This document shows, in pieces, positions 11,011 through 37,719 of a DNA stretch of 41,945 nucleotides. Position 1 is the first letter of the stretch; each line of letters opens with the position of its first letter. A model generated the notes under the pieces. That model was not told the origin of the DNA. It made no database searches and saw only the letters and a list, made by a program, of their open reading frames with translations. Source of the DNA: Acidobacteriota bacterium (GTDB lineage: Bacteria; Acidobacteriota; Thermoanaerobaculia; Gp7-AA8). The stretch covers positions 1-41,945 of the forward strand of contig QHVT01000034.1 in the NCBI GenBank assembly GCA_003223645.1, written 5' to 3'. Position numbers and translations under genes: made by a program.

Positions 11011-11241
11011 CCCGAAGTGCGGACAAAGTAAACGGGTTGGTCGCGGGGGTCAACGGTGGAGCGCAAACGGGGATGCTCGACCGAAGTCTGATCGTGCATG
11101 TGATGGAGCTCGTTTTCGCGGTGACGCTGACCTGGGTTCCGGCATCGACGGTGCGTCGAGCAGATCGCCGGCGACTGCGACTACGCCGCGCAAACAACGA
11201 AGAGCGGCGCTCAGAGGTTGTGAAAAATTTCCAAGAGCTTT

Positions 11242-11335
11242 GTGGCGACCGCTGCCCTCAGCGGTCGCGGCGGCGCTACGCGCCGCTGGCGCCGCCATCG
11301 GCGGCGCTGTGACCGCTGAGGGCAGCGGTCACCAC
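11242..11335. repeat. Twin-hairpin repeat, GTGGCGACC type
   Basis: The outer arms pair over 25 bases with one mismatch (11242-11266 with 11311-11335). Each arm also folds on itself: GACCGCTG-CCCT-CAGCGGTC on the left and GACCGCTG-AGGG-CAGCGGTC on the right. Two more GC hairpins (GGCGC-TAC-GCGCC; GGCGCCGCC-ATC-GGCGGCGC) fill the middle. It has the same plan as the other twin-hairpin elements but an unrelated sequence. Confidence 0.75.
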
Positions 11336-11363
11336 AACACAACTTTTCAAGATTGACGCACTA

Positions 11364-11605
11364 CTAGGAGCCTGCGCGGCAGAAACGACGATCTCAGGCG
11401 CGTTGCGCCGCTCGAAGTCGCAGGTCGTGACGTGGCGACAAGCATGCCGCGAGGCGGAGCAATCCACGCAGCCGCCCGTGGCGGCTAGGAGCCTGCGCGG
11501 CGGAAACGACGATCTCAGGCGCGTTGCGCCGCTCGAAGTCGCAGGTCGTGACGTGGCGACAAGCATGCCGCGAGGCGGAGCAATCCACGCAGCCGCCCGT
11601 GGCGG
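11364..11605. repeat. Two-copy 121-base tandem repeat abutting the BMC operon stop codon
   Basis: Copies 11364-11484 and 11485-11605 differ at only one position (GCGGCAGAAA against GCGGCGGAAA). A third copy begins CTAG at 11606, which is also the stop codon of the last BMC-P gene. Each unit ends with a GCCGCC-CGT-GGCGGC hairpin, so the array could end or process the BMC transcript. The near identity points to recent duplication. Confidence 0.85.
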
Positions 11606-17066: not shown

Positions 17067-17137
17067 GTGGAGCGGCGGCCGCTTCGGCCGCCGGATTCTC
17101 GCGAGGGGTCGGCGGCCGAGAGCGGCCGCCGCTCCAC
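17067..17137 (+). repeat. Twin-hairpin repeat, GTGGAG/CTCCAC type, complete
   Basis: Outer arms GTGGAG and CTCCAC enclose two hairpins with identical stems, CGGCGGCCG-CTT-CGGCCGCCG and CGGCGGCCG-AGAG-CGGCCGCCG, separated by GATTCTCGCGAGGGGT. This is the reference copy for the type. Confidence 0.9.
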
Positions 17138-17232: not shown

Positions 17233-17303
17233 GTGGAGCGGCGGCCGCTTCGGCCGCCGGATTCTCGCGAGGGGTCGGCGGCCGAGAGCGGCCGCCGCTC
17301 CAC
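17233..17303 (+). repeat. Twin-hairpin repeat, GTGGAG/CTCCAC type, second identical copy
   Basis: Identical over all 71 bases to the copy at 17067-17137, and part of the 98-base direct repeat, so it probably arose by local duplication rather than independent insertion. Confidence 0.9.
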
Positions 17304-20756: not shown

Positions 20757-20868
20757 CCGTGAAGGTGCCTCGCAGCAAGACTAAGTATTTGAGACTTCGA
20801 CGAGTTGCCCGAACCGGAAGACCCGTGATGATAATTCCGACGATCCAGCGACAAAAAGGATACGGATG

Positions 20869-20930
20869 GAGTGGTGCGCGCCTCCGGCGCGCCTCTGAGG
20901 ACGAAGGCGCGCCGGAGGCGCGCACCACTC
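20869..20930. repeat. Twin-hairpin repeat, GTGGTG/CACCAC type
   Basis: The 25-base arms (20869-20893 and 20906-20930) pair perfectly round TCTGAGGACGAA. Each arm also forms its own hairpin: GCGCGCC-TCC-GGCGCGC and GCGCGCC-GGA-GGCGCGC. The element occupies the gap between the start of the kelch gene and the end of the NHLP-like gene. A clear relative lies inside the kgd gene (28589-28653). Confidence 0.9.
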
Positions 20931-20932
20931 GA

Positions 20933-21172
20933 TTACGCCTGCGGCGGCCGCACCCCGTACCGTTCGGCGATGCTCACCAGCTTCGTTTCGGCGTCGCCGC
21001 CGCTGCTCCCGCTGATCGAGGTGCGGATCCGCTCGATCTCCGCCATTTCGGCGTCTTCGAGAGCGAAGCCATGCGTCTTCAACGCGTCCTGCGGGCTGTC
21101 GATCAGGCGGCGGCGAAACTCGGGATGCTCGATCGCCCGGCGGACGATCGCGCCGATCATCTCATTGCGCAT
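20933..21172 (-). CDS. Small NHLP/Os1348-like protein (possible RiPP precursor relative)
   Basis: 79 residues from the ATG at 21172, which has GGAGGAGG eight bases upstream. The core, IVRRAIEHPEFRRRLIDSPQDALKTHGFALED, resembles the nitrile-hydratase-leader-like (NHLP) clan, in particular Os1348-type proteins: an F-R/x-L pair followed by a short loop and DALK-x-x-GF. After it comes a Gly/Ser stretch (SISGSSGGD) and a tail ending RYGVRPPQA. In the clan such proteins are RiPP leader peptides or stand-alone relatives. There is no obvious cleavage GG followed by a Cys/Ser/Thr-rich core, and no modifying enzyme next to it, so the RiPP reading is weak. The upstream frame is translated repeat. Confidence 0.65.
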   Translation of the reverse strand: MRNEMIGAIVRRAIEHPEFRRRLIDSPQDALKTHGFALEDAEMAEIERIRTSISGSSGGDAETKLVSIAERYGVRPPQA

Positions 21173-21281: not shown

Positions 21282-21351
21282 GTGGAGCGGCGGCCGCTCT
21301 CGGCCGTCGACCCTCGCGAAAAACCAGCGGCCGAAGCGGCCGCCGCTCCAC
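21282..21351 (-). repeat. Twin-hairpin repeat, GTGGAG/CTCCAC type, reverse orientation
   Basis: Read on the minus strand it matches the 17067 copy over its length, with the middle TTTTTCGCGAGGGTC in place of GATTCTCGCGAGGGGTC. Its last base coincides with the stop codon (TAG) of the outer-membrane protein gene. Position and strength suggest it could also act as that gene's 3' hairpin. Confidence 0.85.
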
Positions 21352-26925: not shown

Positions 26926-27729
26926 ATGCGGGCCGTCATCCGCACCGCCACGCGCGACGATCTCCCCTCGCTGCGCGCGCTCTTCGCGCGCGCGAATGAC
27001 GCGCCCTATGCGCTCGACGTGGTCGCCGAAGAGAAATGTTTCGGCGAGGGAATCGCCGGCGCGCCGGTGACGAGGATTTACGGCGACTTCGAAGGCGCAG
27101 CCGTGACGTGCGGGAAGTGGCTGCGAGTGCTGGTCGTCGATCGCGACGCGCGGCGCCGCGGCATCGGAAGCGCGCTCGTCGCCGACTCGAACGCGAGCGT
27201 GATTTTCGCGGAGCCGGGCAACTACTTCGTGCCGGGAGTGTTCGCGGAGGATGAAGGAACGCGCGCATTTTTTGCGCAACGCGGGTTCATCGAAAAAGCG
27301 TGGACATGGAACGTACACAGTGGAGCGGCGCCCGCTTCGGGCGCCGGGATCTCGCGAGACCTCGGCGGCCGAAGCGGCCGCCGCTCCACTGTCCTCGAAT
27401 TCATCGAACAGCACTTCGGAAAGATCTGGCGCTTCGAATGCTCCCGCGCGCTCGGCATCGTCACTTCTGAAGAAAACGGCGCGCTCACCGGCTTCGCCGC
27501 ATACGAAGCGAACAATCGCGGCCTCGGCGTGTTCGGCCCGACCGGCGTCGTGAAGTCGATGCGCGGGCGCGGGATCGGGCGCGAGCTGCTCCTTCAAGCG
27601 CTCGCGGAATTGCACGCGCTCGGCTACGAACGCGCGATCATTCCGTGGACGGACGCGCTCGATTTCTATCGCAAATCGTGTGGCGCGGAACCCGCACATC
27701 AGTTCGTTGCATTAGTATCCGCCCCGTGA
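26926..27729 (+). CDS. Two-domain GNAT acetyltransferase with in-frame repeat in the linker
   Basis: 267 residues from the ATG at 26926. Domain 1 (about 1-130) has the acetyl-CoA loop RDARRRGIGSAL and FFAQRGF; domain 2 (about 157-265) has SMRGRGIGRELL and ALDFYRKSCG. Tandem GNAT proteins often modify aminoglycosides, amines or protein N-termini; no substrate can be named. The linker (about residues 132-155, SGAAPASGAGISRDLGG...) is exactly the translation of a GTGGAG-type twin-hairpin repeat (27320-27389). The frame is kept and neither domain is interrupted. The stop overlaps the GTG start of the PAP2 gene (GTGA). Confidence 0.85.
   Translation: MRAVIRTATRDDLPSLRALFARANDAPYALDVVAEEKCFGEGIAGAPVTRIYGDFEGAAVTCGKWLRVLVVDRDARRRGIGSALVADSNASVIFAEPGNYFVPGVFAEDEGTRAFFAQRGFIEKAWTWNVHSGAAPASGAGISRDLGGRSGRRSTVLEFIEQHFGKIWRFECSRALGIVTSEENGALTGFAAYEANNRGLGVFGPTGVVKSMRGRGIGRELLLQALAELHALGYERAIIPWTDALDFYRKSCGAEPAHQFVALVSAP
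27320..27389 (+). repeat. Twin-hairpin repeat, GTGGAG/CTCCAC type, inside the GNAT gene
   Basis: Same orientation and layout as the 17067 copy. The left hairpin is CGGCGCCCG-CTT-CGGGCGCCG where the reference has CGGCGGCCG-CTT-CGGCCGCCG, so both sides of the stem changed together and pairing is kept. The right hairpin stem keeps the reference sequence. Confidence 0.9.
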
Positions 27730-28429: not shown

Positions 28430-31400
28430 ATGTCCTCAGTATTCGGCGCAAACATCGCCTTCATCGAAGAGCTGTACGAGAAGTACCGCAACGACCCCCA
28501 ATCCGTCAGCACGAGCTGGCGGGAGTTTTTCGATGACTATCAGCCGCCGGCCGAGGAGGAGGAGCAGCCTCTCGCCGCGGTAGGTGGCGGAGTGGTACGC
28601 GCTTCCAGCGCGCCTCCTGTCCCCCAAAGCGCGCCGGAGGCGCGCACCACTCCAGCACCGCGCCCCACCGCCGTCCCCTCCCCCGCCGGCAATGCCGTTC
28701 CGCTTCGCGGCGCGGCGTCGAAGATCGTCGCGAACATGGAGACGTCGCTCTCCGTCCCCACCGCGACGTCCATGCGCAACATCCCGGTCAAGGTGCTCGA
28801 GGAAAACCGGCGCGTCGTCAACAGTCATCTCGCGAACAGCGGCCAGCCGAAGGCGTCCTACACGCACATCGTCGCGTGGGCGCTCGTGAAAGCGATCAAA
28901 GAGTTCCCGCGCCTCAACGCCGCGTTCGCGATGCAGGACGGCACTCCCGCGCGCATCGATCGCGAGGACGTGAACCTCGGCATCGCCATCGACATCGAGC
29001 GCAAAGACGGCTCGCGCTCGCTGCTCGTGCCGAACATCAAGGGCGCGAACCGGATGGATTTCGCGCAGTTCCTCAAGGCCTACAACGACGTCGTCCGCAA
29101 GGCGCGCAACAACACGCTCGAGATCGCGGACTTCGAAGGCACGACGCTCTCGCTCACGAATCCCGGCACCCTCGGCACCGCCGCGTCCGTGCCGCGTTTG
29201 ATGACATCGCAAGGTGCGATCATCGCGACCGGACAGATTGACTATCCCGCCGAATACTCCGCCGCCGACGAAGCCGTGCTCGCCGACCTCGGCATCTCGA
29301 AAGTGATGACCATGACGTCGACGTACGACCATCGCATCATCCAGGGCGCGGAGTCGGGCGCGTTCCTCGCGCGCGTGCACGAGCTGCTGTTAGGCGGCGA
29401 CAACTTCTACGACGACATCTATCGCGACCTTCGCATCCCCTACGAGCCGATTCGCTGGGCGAAAGACCGCCATCGCCTCGCCCTCGGGTCGACGACCTCC
29501 GACGAGATCGTCGCGCGCGAAGCCGCGGCGCTGCAGCTCATCAATGCCTACAGAGTGCGCGGACATCTCCTCGCCGATCTCGATCCGCTCGACTACAAAG
29601 TCTCCAAGCATCCCGAGCTCGATCCGCAGTTCTACGGCTTCACGCTGTGGGACCTGGACCGCGACTTCGTCTGCGGCGGCTTGTGCGGGAAGCAGACCGC
29701 GAAGCTGCGCGACATTCTGGACACGCTGCGCGAGACGTACTGCGGAAAAATCGGCCCCGAGTACATGCACATGATGGAGACGGTGCAGAAGCGCTGGCTG
29801 CAGGACCGCATGGAGCCGTCGCGCAACAAGCATCCGCTCGACGGCGCGACGAAGCGCCGCATCCTGATGAAGCTCAACGACGCCGAGGCGTTCGAGAAGT
29901 TTCTGCACACGAAGTACGTCGGACACAAACGCTTTTCGCTCGAAGGCGCGGAGTCCGTCATCCCGATGCTCGACTACCTCTTCAACGAAGCCGCAACTGA
30001 CGGCGTCGTCGAAGGCGTGATCGGCATGGCCCATCGCGGACGGCTCAACGTCCTCGCGAACACGCTCGGCAAATCGTACGAGCAGATCTTCCGCGAGTTC
30101 GAAGGCGACATCGATCCGAACTCCCGCGAAGGCTCCGGCGATGTGAAATACCACCTCGGCGCCGACGGCGCGCATCAGACGCCGTCCGGCGAGTTGATGA
30201 AGCTCACGCTGGCGTCGAATCCGTCGCACCTCGAAGCCGTCGACCCGATCGTCGAAGGCATGACGCGCGCGAAACAGAAACTGCTCGCCGACAAAAACCG
30301 CTCGTTCGTCCTTCCGGTCCTGCTGCACGGCGACGCCGCGTTCGCCGGGCAGGGCGTCGTCGCGGAGACGCTGAATCTCTCGCAACTGCGCGGCTATCGC
30401 ACCGGCGGCACGATCCACCTCGTCATCAACAACCAGATCGGATTCACGACCGGCCCCGAGGCCGCGCGATCGTCGTGGTATGCGACCGATGTCGCGAAGA
30501 TGGTGCAGGCGCCGATCTTCCACGTGAACGGCGACGACCCCGAGGCGTGCGTGCGCGCGATGAAACTCGCGTACGACTTCCGCCAGCAATTTCACAAAGA
30601 CGTCGTGCTCGACATCCTCTGCTATCGCCGCCACGGCCACAATGAAGGCGACGAGCCGTCGCTGACGCAGCCGAAGATGTACAAGCTGATCAAAGAACAT
30701 CGCTCGGTGCGCAAGATCTACACCGAACAACTCCTGCGCAAAGGCGACATCTCGCCCGAGGAAGCGGAGCGCTGGCTCGATCAGTTCCAGGCCAAACTGC
30801 AGGAGGCGTTCGATCGCACGAAAGAGCAGGAAGCGCCGCCCTCGCAGCGCGATCCGCTCTGGACCGACGAAGAAGTGACGGGCTATCAGAAAGAGCCGTC
30901 GCCCGACACCTCGATCACCGACGAAGTGCTCGCAAAAATCCGCGCGACGCTCAACGTGCCGGAAGGATTCACGCCGCATCCGAAGCTCAAGCCCGTGCTC
31001 GCGAAGCGGCAGGCGATGTCCGAAGGCAAAGAGCCGATGGATTGGGGCGCCGCGGAGTTCATCGCCTTCGGCTCGCTGCTCCTCGACGGATTCCGCGTGC
31101 GCTTGTCCGGACAGGACGTCGGCCGCGGCACGTTCTCGCATCGCCACGCGATTTTGTTCGACTATGTGACCGGCAACGGCATCGTCCCGCTCAACACGCT
31201 CGCACGCGACGCGAAGCCGGCGAACGTCAGCGATCCCGTTGTCGTCGACAACGCGCTGACACGCGAGACGAACGATCCCGACGCTGAAGTCAGCCTCGCC
31301 GTCTACGATTCGCTGCTCTCCGAATATGGAGTTCTCGGATTCGAGTACGGCTACTCCGTCTCCGATCCCGGCGCGCTCGTGGTCTGGGAAGCGCAGTTCG

Positions 31401-37116: not shown

Positions 37117-37575
37117 GTGAGCATTTCCAGCATCCTCGATCGACTCACCGGCCGCACGTCCGAAGTGCAGCCGCGCGAGCGTCATGATCCGCTTCTCCTC
37201 GCCACCGCCGCCGTCCTGATCGAGATCGCGTACGCGGACGGCACGTTCTCGCCCGCCGAGGATGGGAACGTGGCGCAGTTTCTCGCGTCGCGGTTCTCGC
37301 TGAGGCCTGACGACACGCGCTCGCTGATGGAAGCGGCGGACGAGATCCGAAAGAGGACGGTCGATCACTTCGCGCTCACGCACTACATCCGCAAAAACAC
37401 GCCGCTCGAGGAGCGCATCGAGATCGTGAAGACGATGTGGCGCCTCGTCTACAGCGACGGCAAGCTCACCGACTATGAAGGCTATCTCGTCCGCAAGCTC
37501 GCCGATCTCCTCGGCCTGGAGCATCACGTGATGATCGACGCGAAGTCGGCGGTGCTGCGCGAGATGAATGTTTAG
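37117..37575 (+). CDS. TerB-like protein
   Basis: 152 residues from a GTG. All-helical protein with two acidic metal-binding-like motifs, IEIAYADGTFSPAEDGNV and VYSDGKLTDYEGYL, the duplicated D-G-x-(F/L)-(S/T)-x-x-E pattern of TerB domains. TerB proteins are cytoplasmic or membrane-linked and occur in tellurite and phage-resistance loci, but isolated copies like this are common and their role is unclear. The stop codon lies inside the left arm of the 37574 repeat. Confidence 0.8.
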   Translation: MSISSILDRLTGRTSEVQPRERHDPLLLATAAVLIEIAYADGTFSPAEDGNVAQFLASRFSLRPDDTRSLMEAADEIRKRTVDHFALTHYIRKNTPLEERIEIVKTMWRLVYSDGKLTDYEGYLVRKLADLLGLEHHVMIDAKSAVLREMNV

Positions 37576-37712
37576 TTTATCCCGCGCGCAGACGCGGGAT
37601 CTCCGGCTCCACCGGCAGGGCCACGCTCCGACAGGCGATCGCACATGCTTCGTCGCTCGCGCCGCTCGACGCGGGATCACCGGAGATCCCGCGTCTATGC
37701 GCGGGATAAACT
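37574..37712. repeat. Twin-hairpin repeat, AGTTTATCCCGCG type
   Basis: The 33-base outer arms (37574-37606 and 37680-37712) pair with one or two mismatches. Each arm also folds by itself: ATCCCGCG-CGCAGA-CGCGGGAT and ATCCCGCG-TCTATG-CGCGGGAT. The middle holds a further GACGCGGGATC word. It overlaps the terB stop and ends eight bases before the next gene start, so it may end or separate the transcripts. Confidence 0.85.
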
Positions 37713-37719
37713 GAAGACC

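Follow-up and report, generated by a model that had tools for sequence, protein, structure and literature searches.

What is a long palindrome doing in the middle of an open reading frame, and what did its arrival cost the protein encoded there? The window analysed here, 41,945 nucleotides from an acidobacterial genome (the whole of contig C24; the genome comprises 6.38 Mb in 51 contigs and is 96.7% complete), raises this question at positions 27320–27389 of its forward strand. These 70 nt lie in a gene of the same strand, likely bounded by positions 26926 and 27729, that encodes a tandem GNAT acetyltransferase of 267 residues. Pfam GNAT families match the frame in two stretches, homologues concur, and the solved fold nearest to the predicted structure is 5kf2, a tandem GNAT glucosamine N-acetyltransferase (TM 0.77 on the query). 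Codons 27319–27390, which cover the palindrome, account for 24 residues.

The element opens with GTGGAGCGGCGCCCGCTTCGGGCGCCG, its two ends are GTGGAGCGGC...GCCGCTCCAC, and it is laid out as 27 + 16 + 27 nt. Its left REP (27320–27346, forward strand) is made of a GTGG tag and a hairpin, in the variant with GCGCCCGC...GCGGGCGC arms; the same 27-mer is also present beside the RAYT transposase gene described below. A 16-nt spacer (27347–27362, forward strand), with a short palindrome of its own around TCTCGCGAGA, separates it from the inverted right REP (27363–27389, reverse strand). This is the variant with GCGGCCGC arms, and an identical 27-mer adjoins the RAYT gene. Inverted-repeat analysis of the window extends the arms to 27317–27392, 38 nt each and 89% complementary, and the RNA of the 70-nt element has a predicted fold of -62 kcal/mol. 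The conserved unpaired tetranucleotide at the 5′ foot of each REP, GTGG at both ends, and the inverted pairing of two REPs into one long hairpin are the marks of a REPIN and, judged by this anatomy, the element in the GNAT gene is one. It is not extragenic, being in frame inside a coding ORF. We take extragenic location to be typical of REPINs rather than defining, since published REPs also occur in genes.

The element is far from alone. The pattern GTGGAGCGGC-N45-60-GCCGCTCCAC has at least 162 matches in the genome and none when it is read backwards, which rules out a chance palindrome. Three more full REPINs of the family are found on the forward strand of the window, one at 21282–21351, which our scoring does not place in frame within a gene, and two (17067–17137 and 17233–17303) that form the first and second members of a tandem pair with a 166-bp unit. 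Among 17 other genomes of the bacterial family, 15 have no match to the pattern, while G008 and G009 have one each, with a different internal sequence. In our sample the nearest 70-mers differ from the GNAT copy at one or two positions, and this copy is apparently young. The window holds further repeats: a 121-bp unit in two head-to-tail copies that are 99% identical (11364–11605), and two other long inverted repeats of other sequence (11240–11337 and 37571–37715). A second GTGG-tagged REP family (GTGGTGCGCGCCTCCGGCGCGC) is also present. One member (28619–28654) lies just downstream of the GNAT gene, in a gene that looks to us to be of 2-oxoglutarate dehydrogenase type, where it is read in frame within low-complexity sequence close to the N-terminus; positions 20866–20933 hold an inverted pair, and copies are found in coding ORFs of L127 (2349) and L037 (2507).

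A candidate for the mobilizing enzyme is at hand. A profile search with PF01797 (Y1_Tnp) matches one protein in the genome (the assembly being 96.7% complete, a second RAYT could be missing), and this protein reaches 103.5 bits with NCBIfam model NF047646 (REP-associated tyrosine transposase), whose cutoff is 80. Its sequence contains HVH and a downstream Tyr-Ile-x-x-Asn-Pro stretch, which we take to be the RAYT motifs. REPINs stand before its gene, over its 3′ end and after it, so that a cognate RAYT is flanked by the very repeats that it would move. The RAYT frame even ends in a REPIN (L009:1879–1965), which encodes its C-terminal tail, and the REPIN upstream of the gene (L009:1314–1383) is placed between the arms of a 13-bp inverted repeat, CTCGACACGTCCT...AGGACGTGTCGAG. 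The GTGG tag is also found beside the RAYT genes of several relatives, where other REPs are tagged GTAG. When full REPINs with matching ends were sought beside the RAYTs of relatives, this strict test gave a single one outside the present genome, of low complexity, and a test for single-REP hairpins was used instead. The sister genome G001 yielded neither this REPIN nor any RAYT match.

The bases that adjoin the tag point in the same direction. Of 148 flanks, 52 have CT directly 5′ of GTGG and 27 have CA, while 45 have CC one base further out. The published TnpA-REP enzymes have CT as their cleavage site; the Marinomonas enzyme also uses CA, and with its tag changed to GTGG it cuts at CA and CC, in the part of the report that we draw upon (PMC8266576). 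The flanking bases are non-random, and of the kind expected for TnpA-REP cleavage, but under the guide model, in the same partial source, CT goes with GTAG and would not be expected beside GTGG (PMC8266576). An isolated observation may be added here: at the ABC-F copy (L006:1501–1570) the hexamer AAGCGA is present on both sides, possibly a short target duplication, and none is seen at the 21 other copies compared with it.

What, then, happened to the host protein? The original prediction saw the complete element inserted in frame between two acetyltransferase domains, both left intact. The element, the frame and the two GNAT stretches are as predicted; the second domain is not intact, its start having been replaced. 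Related genomes provide 15 GNAT homologues, 14 from the same family and one from the same order; L026 and L027, which match only in part, are outside this set. The 14 named records are titled Acidobacteriota, Acidobacteria or Thermoanaerobaculia, which bears out the idea of a dispersed palindrome read in frame inside a protein in a phylum other than that of Rickettsia. Homologues had been expected to lack exactly this segment. Instead, all 15 have a linker of similar length and unrelated sequence, and this looks like replacement. A linker peptide common to the homologues, which if found in distant species without a palindrome would have argued against the insertion of an element, is ruled out: the peptides differ, and three of the 15 (L014, L020 and L022) bear other GTGG-tagged palindromes. 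Between Asn129 and Phe164, both conserved, the REPIN-bearing protein has 34 residues and its homologues 26 to 39 (five of them 32), so that the REPIN occupies the place of a native segment. In the relatives, domain 2 begins within the segment replaced here, which takes in the linker, beta strand 1 of that domain and the beginning of its first helix. AlphaFold2 places a strand at residues 144–146 and a helix at 149–163 in the relative L017, with a confidence of 96–97 in this region; in the REPIN-bearing protein it retains, at low confidence, a short strand within the REPIN-encoded residues (142–145), followed by a helix from residue 152, with confidences of 71 and 61 over residues 131–150. The residues that are invariant in the family (an invariance computed with the protein itself included) are retained. 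The comparison is one between relatives rather than strains, the nearest palindrome-free GNAT being about 63% identical outside the linker.

Other copies are read as protein as well. We examined 74 of the at least 162 REPINs, 44 of them on loci from the head of the listing and the rest from the window, the RAYT locus and matches similar to the GNAT copy. With genic calls made mostly by our own codon-usage score, trained on the sampled loci, rather than by a gene caller, the lower score cut gives 20 of the 74 in frame between flanks that both show a coding signal, and the higher cut gives 16 (11 and 9 among the 44). In-frame palindromes inside unrelated protein-coding genes are what is seen with the Rickettsia palindromic elements (RPEs). 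Besides GNAT, the hosts include five that we named by reading their sequences: methionyl-tRNA formyltransferase (FMT, also from PDB matches), the alpha subunit of electron-transfer flavoprotein (ETF-alpha), the E2 of a 2-oxoacid dehydrogenase, an ATPase of the ABC-F type and an ArsA-like ATPase in two parts. In the five others, as in GNAT, homologues from the family align on both sides of the REPIN. Its site is a variable loop-like segment in FMT and ETF-alpha; in GNAT, E2, ABC-F and ArsA it appears as a variable stretch between conserved blocks, which we read as domains. A REPIN in L100 lies between a binding-protein part (where the listed PDB matches end at or before residue 421) and a permease part (with a match from 457), which fits a site between domains and says nothing on length. 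In L124 one long PDB match, 8tn2 (query 132–439 to chain 80–385), extends across the REPIN, the net difference being 2, and is too distant to count. A PDB sequence search with the L112 and L008 proteins gave no match.

The composition of the element makes such readings easy. All six frames are open in 67 of the 74 REPINs, to be compared with a mean of 26.1 and a maximum of 43 in 500 palindrome-preserving shuffles, and with 470 of 4000 random segments from the sampled loci. It could then be argued that the open frame in GNAT is an accident of a stop-poor, GC-rich element, and that the gene is dying, its second domain wrecked. REPINs are indeed stop-poor by nature, this one covers the first strand of domain 2, and the confidence of the model drops there from the 96–97 of native L017 to 61–71. 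Several facts weigh against this explanation, which we find improbable. Openness hardly differs between the three phases (436 of 444 frame tests are open), yet a single one, giving a peptide of small residues, holds 15 of the 20 in-frame REPINs (p = 1.7e-4). REPINs are also found in FMT and E2 genes that are the only close copies in the genome, the next E2 relative being 40% identical. Finally, the identity between the REPIN-bearing GNAT and the 14 homologues from the family (51–59%) is comparable to that between L017, one of these, and the others (50–67%).

Have the same segments been hit elsewhere? Palindromes were scored at four thresholds in 90 coding sequences, orthologues or relatives of the six proteins (L177 is a paralogue in the same genome; the set is without L022, which was not located, and the fragmentary L232–L235). 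At a score of at least 15, ten palindromes fall in the aligned linker windows (9,201 nt) and none in the other 99,024 nt (p = 2e-11, uncorrected and with homologues treated as independent, as for all thresholds). The counts inside and outside are 13 and 2 at a score of at least 12, 19 and 26 at 10, and 29 and 82 at 9. Of the ten strong palindromes, four are in E2, three in ArsA and one each in GNAT, ETF-alpha and ABC-F, that is in five of the six proteins; FMT has none, its relatives showing only a weaker palindrome, with a score of 10. The tag is GTGG in seven, GTAG in one (L184) and neither in two from ArsA (L227 and L230).

The provenance of some of these palindromes can be traced. Two of the ten exactly match repeats beside the RAYT of their own genome. 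In G012 one and the same 27-nt REP occurs in the GNAT linker, in the ABC-F linker and beside the RAYT. A REP tagged GTAG in the E2 linker of G011 recurs unchanged beside a RAYT of that genome. A 54-nt GTGG...CCAC REPIN in the GNAT linker of G015 has 63 two-strand matches in G015, some of which flank a RAYT fragment of contig C482 at either end, and G008 has in its GNAT linker a weaker GTGGGGCGC hairpin that resembles one beside its RAYT. The elements mostly differ between genera; a GTGGCGCCGGC type is nevertheless common to the E2 of G007, the ArsA of G012 and the FMT of G009, and is found beside a RAYT of G003. The variable linkers of this bacterial family thus seem to be recurrent landing places of REPs. 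Might the hairpin be kept for a role in the messenger, for example slowing ribosomes between domains during folding? The stability of the predicted RNA fold between the two GNAT domains would suit such a role, as would the presence of other REPINs in variable segments between conserved blocks. Against it, most relatives have a palindrome-free segment at the position of the GNAT linker, and tolerance accounts for the location without any function; we regard an RNA role as very improbable.

It remains to ask whether the palindromes were added to the linkers or took their place. Lengths were compared in 17 palindrome-bearing segments from five proteins, 'palindrome-free' meaning that no stem scores 9 or more; ArsA, too variable, is excluded, and untagged stems scoring 9–10 (L015, L173, L188, L190 and L194) are in neither group. 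Relative to the nearest palindrome-free relative, the difference in residues is +2, +1, +3 and +1 for GNAT, +1 and -1 for ETF-alpha, +1, +9, +1, +1, -1 and -2 for E2, +2, +5 and +7 for ABC-F, and +15 and +13 for FMT. The change is thus of three residues at most in 12 of the 17, and in 10 of the 14 with elements of at least 50 nt; the other three (L014, L022 and L201) are single REPs of 22–29 nt, which say little on replacement. Median gains over palindrome-free relatives are +2 for GNAT, +1.5 for ETF-alpha, +2 for E2, +4 for ABC-F, +15.5 for FMT and, from one relative only, +10 for ArsA. In most of the linkers measured, the palindromes would therefore seem to replace sequence rather than lengthen it.

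Plain insertion into a linker, with a near-constant length due to coincidence or to slow later trimming, is the obvious competing account, and has points in its favour. Coding REPs in tolerant linkers have been published as insertions, as the part of that study considered here describes them (PMC3733652). FMT is genuinely lengthened, by 15 residues here and 13 in G009, which counts against replacement as a universal rule. Linkers vary in length in GNAT, E2 and ArsA: the E2 linker of a relative of the same genus, L188 (82% identical), is 12 residues longer, and the ArsA linker, 10 residues longer than that of its sole palindrome-free relative and equal to or shorter than others, is too variable to judge. 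Yet insertion alone should have given GNAT about 24 extra residues, and the gain over its three nearest palindrome-free relatives is 2. The ETF-alpha relatives (18 of them, three close, at about 65–69% identity, and the other 15 at about 33–37%) differ among themselves by at most two residues, and the gain with the REPIN is 0 to +2; the REPINs in the ETF-alpha of G003 and in the GNAT of G015 change the length by -1 and +1. The youthful look of the GNAT copy leaves little time for trimming. For GNAT and ETF-alpha, simple insertion is rejected on lengths, and for the phenomenon as a whole we think plain insertion doubtful.

We consider it very probable, in the end, that the REPIN is moved in trans by the only RAYT found, that it is translated in tolerant linkers, where in GNAT it has replaced a native segment, and that similar events recur in other genera. 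The RAYT would carry the REPIN as single-stranded hairpin DNA, the transposition step being one that we infer. A stop-free copy that reaches, in the right phase, a linker or loop able to tolerate it would yield a short segment rich in Ala, Gly, Ser and Arg, and the gene would survive. In GNAT the native linker, with the first strand of domain 2, would have given way to the copy, for a net gain of about two residues. Comparable events, mostly with other REP families, would have hit these segments in the orthologues of other genera, the sites presumably being selected by the tolerance of linkers and loops, not by sequence targeting. Two routes to replacement may be conceived: strand exchange at two cleavage sites on a single-stranded template, or insertion followed by a quick compensating deletion under selection for length, a deletion that a 70-bp insert would need in any case to restore the frame. 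Because the GNAT copy differs by only one or two bases from its nearest sister copies, we lean towards an overwriting in one step or nearly so. A bolder view, which we entertain only tentatively, would make of RAYT-moved REPINs a linker-exchange system, where the single-stranded hairpin replaces a stretch of the template, linkers of the same proteins are swapped repeatedly for any stop-free palindrome that the RAYT of the genome happens to spread, and the palindrome-free linkers are in part decayed earlier ones.

How does this compare with what is known? REPINs and their RAYTs are an established system, and in the portion of the work used here Pseudomonas REPINs are counted in extragenic space (PMC3116915). 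Like the systems of Pseudomonas, Stenotrophomonas and Escherichia coli, the present one combines an inverted pair of tagged hairpins, a high copy number, a Y1 transposase flanked by repeats and C-rich dinucleotides that go with the tag. It departs from them in its tag (GTGG for the usual GTAG), in its acidobacterial host and in the fact that about a quarter of the sampled copies are in coding frames, by contrast with those extragenic counts (PMC3116915). Coding REPs and the tolerance of linkers were already known. A study of 2013, as far as the excerpts considered here go, describes in-frame REP dimers with GTAG or CGTC tags that encode 20–30 residues of numerous unrelated proteins, in bacteria that include Opitutus terrae, Thauera and Rickettsia conorii, proposes that flexible linkers and loops are tolerant and likely harmless places, and reports different REPs at about the same recB site in two Xanthomonas species (PMC3733652). 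The in-frame REP dimers and the tolerant linkers and loops are alike here; those cases are, in the same excerpts, insertions (PMC3733652), whereas we see mostly length-neutral substitutions, recurring at the same segment in five of six proteins.

The best-known coding palindromes, the RPEs, are described in the available part of their account as elements of about 150 bp, in frame in many unrelated proteins, with fusions created by insertion (PMC10969869). RPE-4 and RPE-6 have been counted among CGTC-tagged REPs, and CGTC repeats were tabulated without association with a transposase, within the extent of the text at hand (PMC3733652). Our element would work like the RPEs in that a palindromic repeat is translated in frame inside many unrelated proteins (PMC10969869, in the same part). 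It is set apart, as these partial descriptions go, by its 70 bp against insertions of about 150 bp, by GTGG against the CGTC of RPE-4 and RPE-6, and by its cognate RAYT. We make no claim that it is an RPE, its anatomy being that of a REPIN. In the open-licence literature, judged by titles and the first lines of abstracts, we found no earlier report of REPs overwriting linkers without change of length, or of their recurrence in linkers across genera.

This wider pattern, recurrence and overwriting, is more interesting than the single GNAT case. The length-neutral pattern makes of insertion versus exchange by RAYTs a testable question. It also follows that 'repetitive extragenic palindromes' can be coding, and that the variation of linkers between orthologues may in part be the work of mobile DNA. 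A concrete route would thus be open to selfish DNA for writing new protein sequence without breaking genes, and it would have been taken in parallel in several genera, at homologous positions.
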